Shown here piece by piece: positions 1 to 8,395 of a DNA stretch of 64,000 bases. Location of the stretch: assembly GCA_018666775.1 (NCBI GenBank), contig JABIXC010000007.1, positions 378,015-442,014 on the forward strand, read 5' to 3'. This DNA comes from Rhodospirillales bacterium (GTDB taxonomy: Bacteria; Pseudomonadota; Alphaproteobacteria; SMXQ01). Made by a program: the position numbers and the translations under genes. Numbering within the stretch: the first letter of the stretch is position 1; the number at the start of each line of letters is the position of its first letter. The notes below the pieces were generated by a model. That model saw only the letters and a list, made by a program, of their open reading frames with translations, ran no database searches and was not told where the DNA came from.

Positions 1-707
1 TCGGAAACCACATTGGCCCCGCCTTCCTGATTGGAACTGATCACCATCAAATGGGTCTTTGCAAATTCGCGCCGCACCCGCCACCCGCCAACCTCTCCCA
101 GCCAATGATAACGGGGGTTTATATCCATTTCTGACCGTGCTTGTTTGGCAAATTCAGGGGTGTGGGCCTTTCCCAAATGAATAACCCGAATCCTGGATGC
201 CTCAGGCAATAATCTTGCGGCCCGTGCCGTCCGGAAGGGGTCTTTTTCATCGCGCAAATGGCCGATAACACAAATATCAAAATGGCGTTTGGCAGGCGTT
301 CTGGCACCAGACAATGGCAAGGCCGATTGGCGAACCACATGAAGTTTGTGGCGCAGCCCTTTAGGTAATGCGTTGCCAATAAGATCATGAAGACAGATCA
401 ACGCATCAGCCAGTTTCATGGACCGAAGCGTTGGTTCGGGGTGGGTTTTCAGGAACGTATTCACATCCGTTCCCCCAAGCCCCACCACCAATGGGCCGTG
501 GGCATAGCGTTCGCGGTAGCGCAAAATCGCATCGGCACTGCGCCAGGCATGGATGGCAATCATGACATCCGCTACTTCACCCCTGTAATCAACATCGATG
601 CGCACCTGATGGCCCAGTTCACGCAACATCCGCGCCCAACGAACGGCCGTGGTTCTGTTGCCATTTTTGGACTGTTTTTCAGCCGGCGTGACTATGCTAA
701 TCTTCAT
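1..707 (-). CDS. senB: Selenosugar synthase SenB (TIGR04348-type glycosyltransferase), 3' end outside the window
   Basis: The visible 235 residues begin MKISIVTPAEK and match the TIGR04348 glycosyltransferase family, known as SenB. SenB joins selenophosphate and a UDP-sugar to give a selenosugar, the selenium donor for selenoneine. Visible features are the Rossmann-like N-terminus, a conserved GLGGTDVN segment near residue 75, and the start of the second GT-B domain with VIGHLRDEKDPFR near residue 145. The C-terminus, including the rest of the nucleotide-sugar site, is cut off by the window edge. The ATG at 705-707 is chosen because it faces the senA start only 29 bases away, so the two genes share a very short divergent promoter region. 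Assignment rests on recognised family similarity and on pairing with senA; the reaction itself is known from the family, not shown here. Confidence 0.85.
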   Translation of the reverse strand, partial: MKISIVTPAEKQSKNGNRTTAVRWARMLRELGHQVRIDVDYRGEVADVMIAIHAWRSADAILRYRERYAHGPLVVGLGGTDVNTFLKTHPEPTLRSMKLADALICLHDLIGNALPKGLRHKLHVVRQSALPLSGARTPAKRHFDICVIGHLRDEKDPFRTARAARLLPEASRIRVIHLGKAHTPEFAKQARSEMDINPRYHWLGEVGGWRVRREFAKTHLMVISSNQEGGANVVS

Positions 708-736
708 GAACGTCCCTAACCAATGGTGGAATTTCC

Positions 737-2050
737 GTGACAACGCCTGTTAGTACCGCACATTTGATCGCGAACATGCAAGACGCCCGGAACCGGACCC
801 TTGAACTGGTCGCTGACCTTGATGACCAACAATTGATGGGGCCTAAATTACCCACGGTTAATCCTTTGCGTTGGGAAATTGGCCATGTTGCCTTTTTCTA
901 TGAATATTTCATCCTCAACCAGCTTTACGGGCAGGCGTCCATCTTAGGCGATCGTGCAACGAAGCTCTATGATTCCATTGCCATTGCCCATGAATTGCGA
1001 TGGGATTTGCCACTGCTGAGTCGGGAAGAAACGCTCAATTATTTGCAAACGGTCTTTGATCTGCTGGCAGACCGTCTGGATCAGGGCATGGCCAGCGAAC
1101 AAGACAGCTTCATCTATCAATTCGCCATCTTCCACGAAGACATGCACACAGAAGCTTTTCTCTGGGCACGCCAAACCCTCGGGCTTGCCACGCCTAATCT
1201 CGCCATTGCCGCTGATGTTTCAGACGAACGCGCAGTGGGGCCGCATTCTGGTTTTGCTAAAATTCCCGGAGGCACCTTCCCGCTGGGTGCATCTAAAGAC
1301 GCGCCCTTCTTGTTTGATAATGAAAAATGGGCGCATTCGGTAAAAATAGAGCCCTTTGAAATTGCCAAGGCGCCGGTGACAAATCAGGAATTTCAGGCCT
1401 TCGTCGATGATGGCGGATATGACCGGGAATCTTTTTGGGATAAAGATGGCTGGAAATGGCGCACAGATACCAAAGCCAAACACCCCGTCTATTGGGTGCC
1501 CGATGGGCATCATAAATGGCAGGTCCGGCGTTTCGATCAAACCTTTGCCCTGCCCCCCCATGAACCCGTGATTCACGTCAACTGGTTTGAGGCCAATGCC
1601 TATTGCCGTTGGGCCGGGGTACGGCTGCCCCGAGAATCCGAATGGGAAGCAGCCGCCCTTGGCGAAGCCGGGCCTGATGGCACCTTGGCCGCATCCAAAC
1701 GACGCTATCCCTGGGGGGCGCTCATCCCCGATCCTGCACTTGCCAATCTCGATGGACGGGCATTGGGGCCAATCGACGTGTCGGCACTGGGGGCTGGCGA
1801 CAGTGCGTTCGGGTGCCGCCAGATGCTCGGCAATGTTTGGGAATGGACGGATGATACGTTCAATGGCTTCCCGGATTTTGAAGCGGATGCCTACAAAGAA
1901 TATTCGGCCATGTTATTTGGCGACACCAAGGTGCTGCGCGGGGGTGCCTGGACCACCCGGGGCCGCATGATCCACGGCACGTATCGAAATTACTTTGAGC
2001 CTCACCGCCGCGATGTCTTTTGTGGCTTTAGAACCTGCAAAATAAAATGA
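737..2050 (+). CDS. senA: Selenoneine synthase SenA (EgtB-like nonheme iron enzyme)
   Basis: A 437-residue EgtB-like protein: an N-terminal DinB_2 domain (about residues 10-150) followed by a formylglycine-generating-enzyme type sulfatase domain (about 170-437, with GGTFPLG, VNWFEANAYCRWAG, LRGGAW and CGFR segments). The putative iron ligands His50 (EIGHVAFF) and His133/His137 (HEDMH) sit where EgtB has its three-His facial triad. SenA joins a selenosugar to hercynine to make selenoneine, whereas EgtB makes the sulfur analogue ergothioneine. SenA rather than EgtB is inferred from the divergent SenB neighbour and the selenium context. The start is GTG at 737; the nearby ATG at 724 is closed by a stop after five codons. 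The stop overlaps the next gene's start (ATGA), suggesting translational coupling. No hercynine synthase egtD is in the window. Confidence 0.85.
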   Translation: MTTPVSTAHLIANMQDARNRTLELVADLDDQQLMGPKLPTVNPLRWEIGHVAFFYEYFILNQLYGQASILGDRATKLYDSIAIAHELRWDLPLLSREETLNYLQTVFDLLADRLDQGMASEQDSFIYQFAIFHEDMHTEAFLWARQTLGLATPNLAIAADVSDERAVGPHSGFAKIPGGTFPLGASKDAPFLFDNEKWAHSVKIEPFEIAKAPVTNQEFQAFVDDGGYDRESFWDKDGWKWRTDTKAKHPVYWVPDGHHKWQVRRFDQTFALPPHEPVIHVNWFEANAYCRWAGVRLPRESEWEAAALGEAGPDGTLAASKRRYPWGALIPDPALANLDGRALGPIDVSALGAGDSAFGCRQMLGNVWEWTDDTFNGFPDFEADAYKEYSAMLFGDTKVLRGGAWTTRGRMIHGTYRNYFEPHRRDVFCGFRTCKIK

Positions 2051-3570
2051 CCGCCAGAAATCACCTGTTCGATCAAATCTCAGCTGCCATCACGGACCCC
2101 AAAAAAGGCTTTTTGGAAACCGTTGATGGAAAAACGCTTAGCTATGAAGGGCTGGTTGCCCTGACCGGCCAATACGCCAATGCGTTGTCTGATCTGGGCC
2201 TGAAACCCGGCGACCGGGTTTGCGTACAAGCGGAAAAAAGCATCGCTGTGATGGTGCTGTATCTGGCGACCGTGCGCGCGGGCGGCGTGTTCCTGCCGCT
2301 TAATCCCGGCTACAGCCGGGCTGAAATTTCCTATTTCTTGGGCGATGCCACGCCCTTGATCTTTATCTGTGACCCGAAAAATCAGGCCCCCTACGCCGAT
2401 TTGGCGGACGATTCCGGGGTGGTCCATCTGGAAACCCTTGATCAAACCGGTACGGGCACCTTGTCTGCGCGCGCCAATGCCGCCCCCCCTGAATTTAGCA
2501 ATGTTGCACGCGGAGCAGATGATCTGGCCGCCATTCTTTACACATCGGGCACCACGGGGCGGTCTAAGGGGGCCATGCTCAGCCATGAAAATCTGGCCTC
2601 CAATGCCCGTGCATTGGCGGATTTCTGGCGCTTTACGCCCGATGATGTTTTGTTGCACGCCCTGCCAATTTTCCACACCCACGGGCTTTTTGTTGGCACC
2701 AATGTAACCCTGTTTTCAGGCGCTTCCATGGTCTTCATGGAGGGCTTTGATGCGGGTGAGATCATCCGATTGATGCCAAAGGCAACCGTATTGATGGGCG
2801 TGCCCACATTTTACAGCAGGCTTTTGGCCCGCGATGATTTCACCGATGACCTTACCCGCACGATGCGCCTGTTTATTTCCGGCTCTGCACCTTTATCGGC
2901 TGAGTTGCACAAGGATTTTTCCGCGCGCACCTCTCATGCCATTTTGGAACGCTATGGCATGACAGAAACCAACATGAACACATCCAATCCCTATGATGGC
3001 GATCGCCGTCCCGGCACCGTGGGCCAACCGCTGCCGGGCGTGGAAGCGCGGATTGCCGATATGGAAAGCGGCCACGTATTGGGGCGCAATGAAATTGGCG
3101 TGATCGAAGTTCGGGGTCCCAACGTGTTTCAGGGCTATTGGCAAATGCCAGAAAAGACCGCCTCAGAATTTCGCGAAGATGGCTTTTTCATCACCGGCGA
3201 CATGGGCGTGATTGATGATGATGGCTATGTGTCCATCGTTGGCCGCGACAAAGACCTGATCATCACCGGGGGCTTGAATGTCTATCCAGCCGAAGTGGAA
3301 GCCGCCCTTGATGCCATCGACGGGGTGGCTGAAGGTGCCATTATCGGCGCACCCCATTCAGATTTTGGCGAAGGGGTCATTGCCGTGGTGGCCCCAAAAC
3401 CCGGGGCCAGCCTGACAGAATCCGGTATTATCCAGTCGCTTTCTGATTGCCTTGCAAAGTTTAAACAGCCCAAAAAGGTCTTCTTCGTTGATGCCCTTCA
3501 GCGCAACACCATGGGCAAAATCGAAAAAGCCAAACTCCGCGAAACCTATAAAGGCGCGTTTGAAGGCTAG
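2047..3570 (+). CDS. matB: Malonyl-CoA synthetase-like acyl-CoA ligase (ANL superfamily)
   Basis: A 507-residue adenylate-forming ligase. The P-loop motif ILYTSGTTGRSKGA lies near residues 161-174, the adenine-binding segment ERYGMTETNMNTSNPY near 303-318, the hinge motif GRDKDLIITGG near 400, and the C-terminal catalytic lysine in NTMGKIEKAKLR near 490. The MTETNMNTSNP segment and overall length resemble alphaproteobacterial MatB, which makes malonyl-CoA from malonate, CoA and ATP in the cytoplasm. The substrate remains inference, because methylmalonate and other short dicarboxylates are also used in this family. Its start overlaps the senA stop by four bases, so it is probably coupled to selenoneine synthesis at least in expression. 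It converges on the deiodinase-like gene with a few bases of overlap. Confidence 0.8.
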   Translation: MTARNHLFDQISAAITDPKKGFLETVDGKTLSYEGLVALTGQYANALSDLGLKPGDRVCVQAEKSIAVMVLYLATVRAGGVFLPLNPGYSRAEISYFLGDATPLIFICDPKNQAPYADLADDSGVVHLETLDQTGTGTLSARANAAPPEFSNVARGADDLAAILYTSGTTGRSKGAMLSHENLASNARALADFWRFTPDDVLLHALPIFHTHGLFVGTNVTLFSGASMVFMEGFDAGEIIRLMPKATVLMGVPTFYSRLLARDDFTDDLTRTMRLFISGSAPLSAELHKDFSARTSHAILERYGMTETNMNTSNPYDGDRRPGTVGQPLPGVEARIADMESGHVLGRNEIGVIEVRGPNVFQGYWQMPEKTASEFREDGFFITGDMGVIDDDGYVSIVGRDKDLIITGGLNVYPAEVEAALDAIDGVAEGAIIGAPHSDFGEGVIAVVAPKPGASLTESGIIQSLSDCLAKFKQPKKVFFVDALQRNTMGKIEKAKLRETYKGAFEG

Positions 3571-4241
3571 GCAATTTCTTTCTTGATGGCTTCTTCCCAC
3601 GCATCGAGATCATAGCCGCGCGGCCCAATGGCACCGTTGAAGGTGATGATGCCTTCAGGGTTCACCACAAAGAGCCGGATCGGGGCGGAACGGTATTTGT
3701 CGACGACATCGTTATCAATGCTGTCCAATAACATTGGGATTTTCAGGTCTAAGCTGGTTTGACAGACCCCCGCCACTTCGGCACGTTCATCATCGGATGT
3801 GGGGGCATTGTGAATGATCTCTTCATACAAATTCTGGGGCGTCTGCCAGCCGTTAGCTGGGTGCGCCTCCTGAATGTAGGTGAGGTAAAATGCCAGCTTG
3901 TCTTTATGGGCTTCATATATTTCGTTCAGGCGCACGGCCTGCATACGGAAGGGGGGTCAGGTGTATGACCCAAAGGCCAGTGCCACCGATCGACCTTGCA
4001 GGGATGAAAGGGTCAGGCTTTCACCGGTGCGTTTGCGACCCGGGCCCAGAATTTCGGCGGTAAAATCCGGGGCGACATCGCCCACTTCTGGCGCGCCTTT
4101 TTGATGTTCCCGGAAACCATTGATGTAGGCGTCGAATTCTTCTTCTGACCAGGGGGTGATTTCCAGCCAGATGGCGCGCTTTTCTTCCATAGAAAGAGAG
4201 CCGCCGGAAAAATTTTTGAAGTGTTCGTAACGGGGATCCAT
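3567..4241 (-). CDS. Iodothyronine deiodinase-like selenoprotein with in-frame UGA (Sec95)
   Basis: Reading through TGA at complement(3957..3959) joins two open segments into one 224-residue protein. Around the UGA it reads FGSYTUPPFR, matching the SCTUPPF active site of animal iodothyronine deiodinases, with the Thr before Sec and the double Pro after it. Downstream, IQEAHPANGW (residues 123-132) matches the deiodinase EAHxxDGW motif that carries catalytically important Glu and His. The C-terminal RLFVVNPEGIITFNG is the thioredoxin-fold strand pair. There is no membrane anchor at the N-terminus. The start MDPRYEHF at 4241 fits the family better than in-frame codons further upstream, which give a low-complexity basic extension. 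Bacterial DI-like selenoproteins are known from selenoproteome surveys, but their substrate is not. Iodothyronines are not implied here; thiol redox or reductive dehalogenation are possibilities. tRNA-Sec, selB and selA lie within 5 kb. Confidence 0.9.
3921..3950 (-). promoter_or_regulatory. Candidate bacterial SECIS hairpin of the deiodinase-like gene
   Basis: Six bases after the UGA the mRNA can form a hairpin: an outer UUC/GAA helix and a GU/AC pair, then a perfect CAGGC/GCCUG stem (complement 3941-3937 with 3931-3927) closing a CGUGC loop. A GU in the apical loop and a stem about 20 bases downstream of UGA are what SelB recognises in bacterial SECIS elements. Hand-folded only; the structure was not computed. 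Confidence 0.6.
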
Positions 4242-4396: not shown

Positions 4397-4873
4397 ATGG
4401 CCGATAAACTATACGAAGGGGACAGCTTTCCAAGCATTGCCCTGAACCTGATCGGCGGTGGCACCATGACCATTCCCGATGACATGGATTCCAAATATCT
4501 GATCGCCCTGTTCTATCGCGGCCACTGGTGACCCTATTGCCGCCGGCAGTTGGTCGGCTTCGAGAATGAAAAAGAAGCCTTGAAAAAGCTTGATGCGAAA
4601 GTCATTGCCATCAGCGCAGATGACGAAGCAAACGCGCAAGAAGTGGCAAAGGATGTTTCCTTTCCCGTCACCCACAGCGCCACAAAACAAGATGCCTACG
4701 CCATGGGAGGCTGGGCAGGCGTTCATCGCGGCACTGATATCGTCCAGCCATCAGAATTTGTCATCGGTCCTGATGGCAAGGTGATGACGTCGAGCTATTC
4801 TGCTGGCCCCATCGGGCGCATGGATGCCGCCGATGTGGTCAAATGGCTGACGCGCCGCGATTCACTGGGATAA
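4397..4873 (+). CDS. Peroxiredoxin-like selenoprotein with in-frame UGA (Sec45, UPYC motif)
   Basis: From the ATG at 4397, preceded by AAAGGGA, the frame is open to 4873 apart from one TGA at 4529-4531. Read as Sec, the 158-residue protein contains FYRGHWUPYCRRQL, where the AhpC/TSA peroxiredoxin-like family normally has RGHWCPYCRREL. Sec45 therefore replaces the peroxidatic Cys, and Cys48 gives a UxxC redox pair. Later segments (KVIAISADD, VIGPDGKV) are standard thioredoxin-fold strands. The expected role is reduction of peroxides or disulfides in the cytoplasm with a thiol donor; the substrate is inferred. The gene is divergent from the deiodinase-like selenoprotein gene, followed by a strong terminator, and faces tRNA-Sec. 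Sequence continues with good family similarity on both sides of the UGA, which argues against a pseudogene. Confidence 0.92.
4539..4558 (+). promoter_or_regulatory. Candidate bacterial SECIS hairpin of the peroxiredoxin-like gene
   Basis: Seven bases after the UGA, GCCGCC (4539-4544) can pair with GG(U)CGGC (4552-4558), with one bulged U, around a GGCAGUU loop. A short stem with a bulged U and a G-containing apical loop resembles the E. coli fdhF element. Alternative pairings (TGCC/GGCA) exist in the same bases, so the fold is tentative. Confidence 0.5.
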
Positions 4874-4929: not shown

Positions 4930-5024
4930 TGGCGGAAAGGCGTGGGAGTCGAACCCACCAAGGACGTCTAACGCCCCTCACTGGATTTGAAATCCAGGCG
5001 CACCACCGGATACGATGCCCTTCC
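4930..5024 (-). tRNA. selC: tRNA-Sec (anticodon UCA)
   Basis: On the minus strand the 95-base sequence has an 8-bp acceptor stem (GGAAGGGC/GCCTTTCC), an anticodon arm CTGGA-TTTCAAA-TCCAG with anticodon TCA, a long variable arm, a TTCGA T-loop and an encoded 3' CCA. The extended acceptor stem, long extra arm and UCA anticodon identify selenocysteine tRNA. It lies 8 bases after the selB stop and is probably co-transcribed with selA-selB, ending at the terminator centred near 4908. Confidence 0.97.
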
Positions 5025-5032
5025 AAAATATA

Positions 5033-6943
5033 TCACCGCTTGCCCCGCCAATTTACATCAACCGCAGGCTTTCGGATATCGCGTTCATTGCCGCGACGAA
5101 CGGTAAAGCCAATCCGGTCAAAATATTCTGCAACCTCGATGATGGCGTTGCGGCCAATGCCCGATTGATCGCGAAATGCCTTGATGGTCAGGCTGCCATC
5201 GGCCTTGGCGATGGCCTCGGCCATCGCGCCCAGCTTTTCCAACGTGCCACACTGCAAAAAGCACTTGGCCGACACTTGGACAACCTTGCCGATGCGCGAT
5301 GCACGGATCAAAAACTGTTCCACGGCCTTAATATCTGCACCAGCTTCATCTGCCATATCCCCCAATGAAGGCGGGCGGGGATCACAGGCTTCGAAAATCG
5401 GTTCCAGTTTTTTCCAAAGCGCTTCATCTTTTGGTGCCAATTGCGCCCGGTGTTCCACCAACCGCACCATCGCATCCTTGACCAGCACTGTGCCATTTTC
5501 GGACAATTCACCGATCATTTGAACAAACGCATCTTTGGGAAGTGCCCGCCCGACCAATTTGTGTAGCCCTGCACTTGCAATCCCTTGGGCATCCTTGTTA
5601 TCGGTATGAAACGCCTTAAGGGCCGCGTTTATTTTTGCTACCCAACCCTTCCAGTGTTCGCCAGAAAACCCATAATTTCCGCCCTTTTTTGGCACAATTT
5701 GGTCTATGAGTGCCGTTGCATCTTTTGGCACCAAGTTCCAGGTGCGCACAAACCTGCTGATGTCCACGCCGCCTGAATTTTCCTGCAACAAAGACAATAG
5801 CGCCTTTTCGACCGGCTCACATTCCATGCAACGCAGGATGCTTAACCGTTCCGGGCGCGCCCTGCCCCGGGCCGGGGCAAAGGGGTCAATCACTGTCCCA
5901 CCGGCCATCGTGCGCCAAGCCGATTGATCGCGCAGGATAAACCGATCACCCCGCAGGGCGCCGATGTCGCGCTCTGTAACAATCTGCACCAGACCGTGAT
6001 CGCCGGGCGCGATTGAGCCGCCTTCTAAAACGGCCACCCGGGCCGGGATGTCTGCGGCCCCCAAATGCAAATGAACCGGGGTCCAATGTTTGATGGGGGC
6101 ATCTTCGCCCGGCAACACCCGAAGGCGCGCATCGATGCGGTTTGTCGGCGCATGAACCGGGGCCGCCAAAATCCAATCGCCGCGATTGATGTCTCCCCGT
6201 TCCAACTGTTGGCCTGTGATGTTCAGGGCACAGCGCTGGCCAAGCTGGGCCGTTTCTGATTGCTGGTTCTGGGCATGGATGCCCCGCACCCTGACGGGAA
6301 TGCCAGATGGTGACACCATCAATGGATCGCCAATTTTTACGGCACCGGAAAAAACAGCCCCTGTCACCACCACGCCGGCCCCGGGCACGGTGAAACTGCG
6401 GTCCACGGCAAGGCGAAAATTCCCAAATTCAGCGCCCATTGGCCGCATTGCTGCCCGATCAAGCGCATCGCGTAAATCCGGCACGCCATCACCGGTGGGG
6501 GCAGAGACTGGATAAATTTCTGCCCCTTCAAAACCCGATCCTGCAAGCAACTGTTCTATTTCTGCCCTGACCTCTGCCACCCGAGCACCCGCTACCCGGT
6601 CGATTTTGGTGATCGCCACCACCATGGAGGCAACCCCAAGCAGGCCCAAAATGGAAAGATGTTCTTCCGTTTGGGGCATGGGGCCATCATCGGCGGCCAC
6701 CACCAACAGCGCGCAATCAATGCCGGTCACCCCTGCGATCATATTGCGAACGAATTTTTCGTGGCCCGGCACATCGACAAACCCCAACACCGAACCATCC
6801 CGTGCGGGCGTGTAGGCAAAGCCCAAATCAATGGTCATCCCACGCTTTTTTTCTTCTGGCAACCGATCGGCATCAACACCGGTCAGCGCCTTCACTAACA
6901 GCGTTTTGCCATGATCAATATGCCCGGCCGTGGCAATGATCAC
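5033..6943 (-). CDS. selB: Selenocysteine-specific elongation factor SelB
   Basis: A 636-residue translational GTPase with GHIDHGKT (P-loop, about residue 8), RGMTIDLGF (switch I), DVPGHEKF (switch II) and TKID (guanine specificity), then EF-Tu-like beta-barrel domains and winged-helix repeats in the C-terminal third that bind the SECIS. SelB delivers Sec-tRNA to UGA codons marked by SECIS. The GTG at 6943 is chosen because the protein then begins VIIATAGHIDHGKT as in E. coli and overlaps the selA stop by four bases (GTGA); a TTG five codons upstream is the alternative. Length is close to the E. coli protein. The stop is itself TGA, immediately upstream of tRNA-Sec. Confidence 0.97.
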   Translation of the reverse strand: MIIATAGHIDHGKTLLVKALTGVDADRLPEEKKRGMTIDLGFAYTPARDGSVLGFVDVPGHEKFVRNMIAGVTGIDCALLVVAADDGPMPQTEEHLSILGLLGVASMVVAITKIDRVAGARVAEVRAEIEQLLAGSGFEGAEIYPVSAPTGDGVPDLRDALDRAAMRPMGAEFGNFRLAVDRSFTVPGAGVVVTGAVFSGAVKIGDPLMVSPSGIPVRVRGIHAQNQQSETAQLGQRCALNITGQQLERGDINRGDWILAAPVHAPTNRIDARLRVLPGEDAPIKHWTPVHLHLGAADIPARVAVLEGGSIAPGDHGLVQIVTERDIGALRGDRFILRDQSAWRTMAGGTVIDPFAPARGRARPERLSILRCMECEPVEKALLSLLQENSGGVDISRFVRTWNLVPKDATALIDQIVPKKGGNYGFSGEHWKGWVAKINAALKAFHTDNKDAQGIASAGLHKLVGRALPKDAFVQMIGELSENGTVLVKDAMVRLVEHRAQLAPKDEALWKKLEPIFEACDPRPPSLGDMADEAGADIKAVEQFLIRASRIGKVVQVSAKCFLQCGTLEKLGAMAEAIAKADGSLTIKAFRDQSGIGRNAIIEVAEYFDRIGFTVRRGNERDIRKPAVDVNWRGKR

Positions 6944-8367
6944 GGATTGGCATCCCAAACAAGCTGATCTAACTGGGCCAAAAAGCCCGCCTCATCCACC
7001 AAACAGCGGAGATCCAGAATAAAACTGTCATCTTGAATGCGGCCAATAACCGCCATTGGCAGCGCACGTAACGCCGCCGAAAGCGTGTTCAGGGCGCGGC
7101 CTGTGCCCCGCTTTTTTGGATCAGGGCACACCGCAAGGGCAAAACTTTCAAGGTTTTCCACCGGCAAGGACCCGCTGCCGATCTGGCTTTGACAGGGCAG
7201 CATTTTCACACGCATGCCATCCCCCAATTGGGCTTGCAACAAGGGGGCAAGGCGGGTCGCCTGGGCCTCAATATCCTGTGCAGGGCGGGACAATAACCCG
7301 ATCACCGGCACATGTTGGGCCAATCGGTCCGGGTCTTGGTAGAGGCGCAACACGGCCTCAAGGGCCGCCAAGGTCATCTTGTCACAGCGCAATGCGCGTT
7401 TCATGGGGTTGCGTTTAATTTTGGCGATCAGGTCTTTGCGCCCGGCAATGATCCCCGCCTGCGGCCCGCCCAGCAGTTTATCGCCGCTGAAGGTCACCAA
7501 ATCGGCCCCATTGGCCAATGTTTCCGCAACCGTTGGTTCGTGGGGCAATCCATATTGCGCCAAATCCACCAATGACCCCGCACCAAGATCGACCACAAAG
7601 GGCACATCATGGGCATGAGCAATTTCGGCCAGTTTCTTTTCAGGCACCGATGCGGTGAACCCCTCAACCACATAATTGCTGGTGTGCACCTTCATGATCA
7701 TGGCCGTTTTCGGCCCCATGGCCCCTTCAAAATCGGGGGCATGGGTGCGGTTGGTGGTCCCCACCTCTATCAATTTACAGCCCGCGCGCGCCATGATGTC
7801 TGGCATGCGGAACGCGCCGCCAATTTCAATTAATTCACCGCGCGATACCGGCACTTGCTTGCGCAGCGCCAAGGCATTCAACACCAACAAAACGGCTGCC
7901 GCATTGTTGTTCACCACGGTTGCCGCCTCACACCCTGCAAGCGTGCATACCAAATCTTCCAGATGGCTGTCGCGATCCCCGCGTTTGCCGGTTTCCAGAT
8001 CAAATTCCAGATTGGACGCGCCCATGGCAATTTCTGCCACGGCATCAATGGCTATTTGTGGCAACATGGCGCGGCCAAGGTTGGTGTGCAGCACCGTGCC
8101 CGTCAGATTAAAGACCGGGCGCAGGGATGGACGCGCTTCTGCCTCCACCATCAATGCGACCCGGCGGGAAATCGTCTTATCGGAAAGATCGGGTGGTGAA
8201 CCGGTATTATCACCAATAATTTCGCGCAATTGCGCCAATACCGCACGCACACCGGTTGTGACCACCGCGCGGCCATGGGCCTCTACCAACGCCACAATCG
8301 GCGCCAACCCAAGGATACGGTCAACAGACGGCAAGGATGCCTGAAGGGGGGGGTCGGACTTAGCCAT
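6940..8367 (-). CDS. selA: L-seryl-tRNA(Sec) selenium transferase SelA
   Basis: A 475-residue PLP enzyme that converts Ser-tRNA(Sec) to Sec-tRNA(Sec) using selenophosphate. The PLP-binding lysine is Lys297 in SGDKLLGGPQAG, close to Lys295 of E. coli; VVNNNAAAVLL (about 151-161) and DLGAGSLVD (about 260-268) are also conserved. The start is the ATG at 8367; a TTG two codons upstream is in frame. Codons 6-8 include a C8 run on the coding strand (G8 at 8346-8353). The gene is first in an apparent selA-selB-tRNA-Sec unit, with its stop overlapping the selB start. The 156 bases upstream contain a direct repeat noted separately and otherwise no gene. Confidence 0.97.
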   Translation of the reverse strand: MAKSDPPLQASLPSVDRILGLAPIVALVEAHGRAVVTTGVRAVLAQLREIIGDNTGSPPDLSDKTISRRVALMVEAEARPSLRPVFNLTGTVLHTNLGRAMLPQIAIDAVAEIAMGASNLEFDLETGKRGDRDSHLEDLVCTLAGCEAATVVNNNAAAVLLVLNALALRKQVPVSRGELIEIGGAFRMPDIMARAGCKLIEVGTTNRTHAPDFEGAMGPKTAMIMKVHTSNYVVEGFTASVPEKKLAEIAHAHDVPFVVDLGAGSLVDLAQYGLPHEPTVAETLANGADLVTFSGDKLLGGPQAGIIAGRKDLIAKIKRNPMKRALRCDKMTLAALEAVLRLYQDPDRLAQHVPVIGLLSRPAQDIEAQATRLAPLLQAQLGDGMRVKMLPCQSQIGSGSLPVENLESFALAVCPDPKKRGTGRALNTLSAALRALPMAVIGRIQDDSFILDLRCLVDEAGFLAQLDQLVWDANP

Positions 8368-8395
8368 ATTCAAATCCAGCTTTAAAAATACAGGG

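Follow-up and report, generated by a model that had tools for sequence, protein, structure and literature searches.

A deiodinase-like selenoprotein with a conserved second cysteine, encoded beside a peroxiredoxin-like selenoprotein in a bacterial selenium gene island

A minus-strand gene within 64,000 nucleotides of Rhodospirillales bacterium DNA (this whole stretch is hereafter called the window) was found to encode what the evidence supports as a bacterial deiodinase-like (Dio-like) selenoprotein, with selenocysteine (Sec) predicted at residue 95. The first-pass annotation, made from the letters alone, had proposed that two adjacent minus-strand segments form one protein of this type, and this proposal was borne out by a UGA column that is conserved among relatives, a covarying SECIS element and selective constraint on the sequence before and after the UGA. 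The gene lies within a continuous run of selenium-related genes and is divergent from a gene for a second predicted selenoprotein, which is peroxiredoxin (Prx)-like. The coordinates of these features are listed in Table 1.

Table 1. Features of the window discussed in the text, with strand and basis of assignment.
Feature	Position	Strand	Basis
SenB, selenosugar synthase	3..707	-	runs off window edge; TIGR04348 399.6 bits (cut-off 300), full gene in L035
SenA, selenoneine synthase	737..2050	+	NF041186 473 bits, cut-off 420
Malonyl-CoA synthetase (MatB-like)	2047..3570	+	788 bits, cut-off 558
Deiodinase-like selenoprotein, 224 aa, Sec95	3567..4241	-	one frame read through UGA; PF00837 match
Codon of Cys160, proposed resolving Cys	3762..3764	-	invariant in aligned UPPF-type Sec proteins
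Bacterial SECIS hairpin (predicted)	3923..3947	-	fold z -2.2; apical stem 100% paired with compensatory changes
In-frame UGA, Sec95 (TUPPF)	3957..3959	-	UGA at same column in 18 aligned sequences
Prx-like selenoprotein (GHWUPYCR), 158 aa	4397..4873	+	AhpC-TSA 63 bits; Sec in 7/7 cassettes
In-frame UGA of Prx-like selenoprotein	4529..4531	+	hairpin follows, fold z -3.6
tRNA-Sec (selC)	4930..5024	-	ARAGORN; RF01852 75.4 bits
SelB, selenocysteine-specific elongation factor	5033..6958	-	profile match
SelA, L-seryl-tRNA(Sec) selenium transferase	6940..8373	-	538 bits

When the minus strand was read from 4241 to 3567, a single TGA was the sole interruption of the frame, and the translation included FGSYTUPPFR, YIQEAHPANGW and VCQT. 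The ATG at 4241 was taken as the start, in agreement with relatives that likewise open with MDPR(Y/F)E. The HMM search that had been proposed as a check placed the protein in Pfam PF00837 (T4_deiodinase) at 72.6 bits (E = 3.8e-20, cut-off 27); AhpC-TSA was the second Pfam match (34.8 bits, cut-off 26), and the NCBIfam deiodinase family protein model NF038285 gave 141.2 bits, below its cut-off of 250. Mouse Dio3 and Dio2 were the best PDB relatives by sequence. Structure prediction of the monomer with Cys in place of Sec, likewise proposed earlier, returned a model of high confidence (pLDDT 91.1, pTM 0.87) that ranked closest to Dio2 and Dio3 (PDB 9h48, TM(target) 0.82, and 4tr3, 0.74), followed by ResA, AhpE-like and other thioredoxin (Trx)/Prx proteins. 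By sequence and predicted structure, the protein thus combines a Trx/Prx fold and the deiodinase insertion EAHPxDGW. The absence of a membrane anchor, which the first-pass annotation had contrasted with the animal enzymes, was upheld by a hydropathy scan, because no 19-residue window exceeded a Kyte-Doolittle mean of 1.01 and the highest mean for windows starting before residue 45 was -0.03. The count of one further Cys (VCQT) was also correct, Sec95 and Cys160 being the sole Cys/Sec positions of the protein.

Recoding of the UGA was examined by alignment, RNA structure and gene co-occurrence. The UGA occupied one column in the 18 aligned sequences (the window protein and its relatives), and was followed by a hairpin with an apical stem CAGGC/GCCUG (3941-3927) and a CGUGC loop. 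This 5-bp stem was paired in 17/17 distinct Sec homologues and included 13 two-sided changes (C-G/G-C/A-U and G-C/U-A). Neither the number of paired cells nor the covariation score was reached in any of 500 shuffles, a test inflated by the kinship of the sequences, and slid registers, which are equally related, all scored far lower. The lower helix was weaker (72% paired) and is less certain than the apical stem. Comparison to the closest relative (G005) revealed purifying selection upstream as well as downstream of the UGA, with changes mostly silent and third codon positions dominating. True tRNA-Sec, counted as RF01852 matches of at least 66 bits only (those of about 55 bits and below being chance matches to other tRNAs), was detected in 9/9 sampled genomes of the class with the UPPF type vs 54/385 overall (P = 1e-8, an optimistic value since the species are related). 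In the window, tRNA-Sec, selB and selA lie 0.7-4 kb from the Dio-like gene. Taken together, these results strongly support the prediction that UGA95 is decoded as Sec by the products of the adjacent selA, selB and selC genes, as directed by the downstream SECIS. Standard gene calling would split the frame into two ORFs, as though the UGA were a real stop and the halves were separate or decayed genes; this reading was rejected as scarcely credible, being contradicted by the UGA column shared across related genomes, the SECIS covariation, the constraint on both halves and the adjoining Sec machinery. Matches to Rfam sraL, STnc40 and Collinsella-1 fell below the gathering score and were dismissed.

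Homologues with Cys at the UGA position, whose absence the first-pass annotation had named as refuting its proposal, were found at 15 loci belonging to Opitutia, Planctomycetes, Myxococcota, and Gamma- and Zetaproteobacteria, four phyla in all (Pseudomonadota, Myxococcota, Verrucomicrobiota and Planctomycetota). A single-protein scan of the genome contigs recovered no relative, as expected since Cys codons and not UGA were back-translated, and for the same reason the alignment scan gave only Cys forms. In the tree, the UPPF Sec proteins formed one supported region that also held the long-branched Cys sequences L008 and L009, and by these data a single origin of the UPPF Sec proteins is likely. 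The two mouse enzymes were across the midpoint root from this region, their exact place being unsure because of long branches. A separate subfamily of Dio-like selenoproteins of UPYC type (L022, L023) was also observed, which groups with Cys proteins of CSMY and CPMY type.

The gene order of the island was found to be putative selenate ABC transporter, NDH-SelD, SenB, SenA, MatB, Dio-like, Prx-like, selC, selB and selA, with the MatB-like gene convergent with the Dio-like gene and overlapping it by 4 bases. Beyond the upstream edge of the window, the remainder of SenB is encoded together with an NDH-SelD fusion, PhnC- and PhnE-like subunits and the putative selenate ABC transporter, which matched TIGR04553 at 364.6 bits against a cut-off of 250. 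The transporter gene and its PhnC-/PhnE-like companions are on the same strand directly upstream of the NDH-SelD fusion, and this segment (L035:6279-11770, on contig C7 of the window genome) is a candidate for a dedicated selenium uptake operon. According to a 2026 review, a specific high-affinity transport system for selenium has yet to be identified in any prokaryote (PMC13188914). SenB and SenA are head to head (window 3-2050) and EgtD is encoded elsewhere in the genome, so selenoneine synthesis looks complete. Neither a Sec formate dehydrogenase (TIGR01553 matches were below cut-off and had no in-frame stop) nor SelW was found in the genome search. A peroxiredoxin gene with an in-frame TGA (FGRGUTNEAQ; L084, G000:C11:7393-7758) probably encodes a third selenoprotein of this genome.

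The divergent Dio-like/Prx-like pair was found to adjoin selC or selAB in seven genomes, which represent two families, each from a different order (G000, G005, G006 and G008; G219, G308 and G385). This cassette consists of the pair and tRNA-Sec, plus selB and selA on contigs long enough to include them; the G005 and G006 cassettes are on 5-kb contigs, which show part of it. By tree, the cassette Dio-like gene of G006 and G008 is from another subclade, so that conservation applies more to the slot than to the particular paralogue that fills it. The Prx-like gene was present in 8/9 sampled UPPF genomes compared to 11/45 other genomes with tRNA-Sec (Fisher P 0.0005, kinship ignored). The intergenic regions of the pair align poorly across the two families, and no shared operator is claimed for them. 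No description of the Dio-like/Prx-like/sel cassette was recognised in the open-licence literature searched. Rather than a single pathway, the gene neighbourhood may mirror how selenium genes are regulated.

The active site was compared to that of the animal deiodinases using published residue numbering and roles (PMC11592359, PMC9141512). The proton-relay residues are kept (Ser92, Thr94, Tyr122, Glu125 and His127, the last equivalent to deiodinase His202), and Trp132 likewise matches deiodinases in the alignments. His144 aligns with Dio3 His219, a column that is Tyr or Phe in most close relatives. By contrast, the basic substrate clamp (Arg275 of Dio3, Lys241 of Dio2) is missing, with Ile205 at this position and variable residues in relatives, and the deiodinase proximal Cys (Cys124 of Dio1, Cys168 of Dio3; Ala in Dio2) is replaced by Tyr93. 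Deiodinase Phe258, present in both mouse enzymes, is replaced by Pro187, which is invariant in the aligned bacterial homologues. By its position, Pro187 corresponds to the cis-proline of thioredoxins. Every aligned UPPF Sec protein has Cys160, as do several CPPF Cys homologues, and its column was without Cys in the CPHH/CPHF group (Pseudomonadota, Myxococcota) and in both mouse enzymes. In the predicted structure, Cys160 is in the helix that follows the deiodinase-type insertion by order of secondary structure, the helix in which atypical 2-Cys Tpx enzymes have their resolving Cys. Because of the missing clamp and proximal Cys and the presence of Pro187, actual deiodinase activity is unsupported, and by sequence comparison these differences argue for a thiol-redox (Prx-like) cycle over iodothyronine deiodination.

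The explanation that we favor, with moderate confidence, is that the protein is a cytosolic, Sec-dependent oxidoreductase of the deiodinase-like branch of the Trx/Prx fold. The Sec95 selenolate, held by Ser92, Thr94, Tyr122, Glu125 and His127, would attack an electrophilic atom of the substrate, after which Cys160 would resolve the oxidised selenium to a selenenyl-sulfide, to be reduced by a cellular thiol such as glutathione/glutaredoxin or thioredoxin. A peroxide or disulfide is the more probable substrate compared to an organohalide, and the Dio-like protein and the divergent Prx-like selenoprotein would probably be paired in a selenium-dependent redox module. The Sec95-Cys160 cycle is proposed because of the conservation of Cys160 and its place in the helix after the insertion. 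The cycle would not be family-wide, since Cys160 is absent from the CPHH/CPHF Cys homologues, and Cys160 may instead be structural.

Two other explanations were weighed against this oxidoreductase. A true reductive dehalogenase, in which Sec95 strips a halogenated aromatic of iodine or bromine and the selenenyl halide is reduced by Cys160 and thiols as in animal deiodinases, is consistent with the retained TUPPF, EAHPxDGW and Thr, Tyr, Glu and His relay residues and with the match of His144 to His219, a column that is mostly Tyr or Phe in close relatives. Further Dio-like copies bear on this reading. In two genomes of one genus (G219, G385), a paralogue is in a same-strand run of VOC, Dio-like, PhyH and glutaredoxin genes (L080:7853-10490 and L076:9026-11677) that adjoins genes for a ring-hydroxylating dioxygenase and a 2-keto-4-pentenoate-hydratase-like protein, which makes aromatic substrates, perhaps halogenated ones, plausible for this subclade and suggests glutaredoxin as a reductant. 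Next to the window copy, however, no gene related to halogens was found, and with Ile205, Tyr93 and Pro187 at the clamp, proximal Cys and Phe258 positions, we consider dehalogenation unlikely for the window protein. Still less probable is a thiol-disulfide oxidoreductase or selenium handler of the island, one that would for example protect or deliver selenium compounds for SelD, SenB or Sec synthesis and have no peroxide or halide substrate. Placement of the gene within the continuous island, its adjacency to selABC or selC in the seven genomes, the ranking of ResA and other thioredoxin-like proteins as next best folds and the proline at the thioredoxin cis-Pro position are all consistent with such a role, but other Dio-like copies are far from selenium genes, and genomes with Cys homologues include some that have no true tRNA-Sec (G163, G302). 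In a separate genome (G004, L063), two Dio-like copies were observed to flank a PhnCDE-like ABC transporter, one of them apparently without the Sec region. A broader scheme, which we advance only tentatively and regard as doubtful, is that the Dio-like and Prx-like proteins form a conserved two-protein module around selABC in which Sec95/Cys160 represents an ancestral Prx-type cycle, to which animal deiodination may later have owed its origin, or that in some lineages the protein is a Sec-dependent aromatic dehalogenase.

Being soluble, with a conserved second Cys and a defined cassette that includes Sec machinery, the window protein lends itself to being expressed and assayed. Such an assay would show whether halogen or thiol-peroxide chemistry is the older in the family to which the enzymes that activate thyroid hormone belong. 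The island also unites a putative selenate transporter, selenophosphate and selenoneine synthesis, and Sec decoding, and thus bears on how selenium is allocated within a cell.

Compared to the mouse enzymes Dio2 and Dio3, the window protein has in common the TUPPF motif, the EAHPxDGW insertion and the Thr/Tyr/Glu/His relay but lacks the anchor and the basic clamp, has Tyr and Pro in place of the proximal Cys and Phe258, respectively, and carries its second Cys elsewhere. Atypical 2-Cys peroxiredoxins and ResA-type proteins are alike in the AhpC-TSA match above cut-off and in the presence of ResA and AhpE among the next folds, but are without the deiodinase insertion. The NF038285 family shares the same domain, the score of the window protein being under its cut-off. 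The CPHH/CPHF deiodinase-family proteins of zeta- and gammaproteobacteria (L058 and relatives, about 360 aa; L058 itself 369 aa) have N-terminal hydrophobic segments and no Cys160, unlike the window protein. Deiodinase-like bacterial selenoproteins were reported from the Sargasso Sea in 2005, in Sec and Cys forms with a guessed redox role (PMC1088965), and were counted in the GOS data in 2008 (PMC2398784). The 2026 review describes the family as functionally unknown with the motif UxxC, compared to UPPF in the window protein, and its section on operons does not mention the Dio-like/Prx-like cassette (PMC13188914). The family is thus already known, a record that was beyond the first-pass annotation, as were the adjoining Sec machinery and second selenoprotein and the conservation of the extra Cys. 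The 2005 and 2008 proteins share with the window protein the PF00837 match, Sec with a bacterial SECIS, the occurrence of Sec and Cys forms and a proposed redox function; those members are metagenome sequences named by family, to which are added here the genome context, with its Prx-like partner and selenium island, the conserved Cys160 and a testable mechanism.
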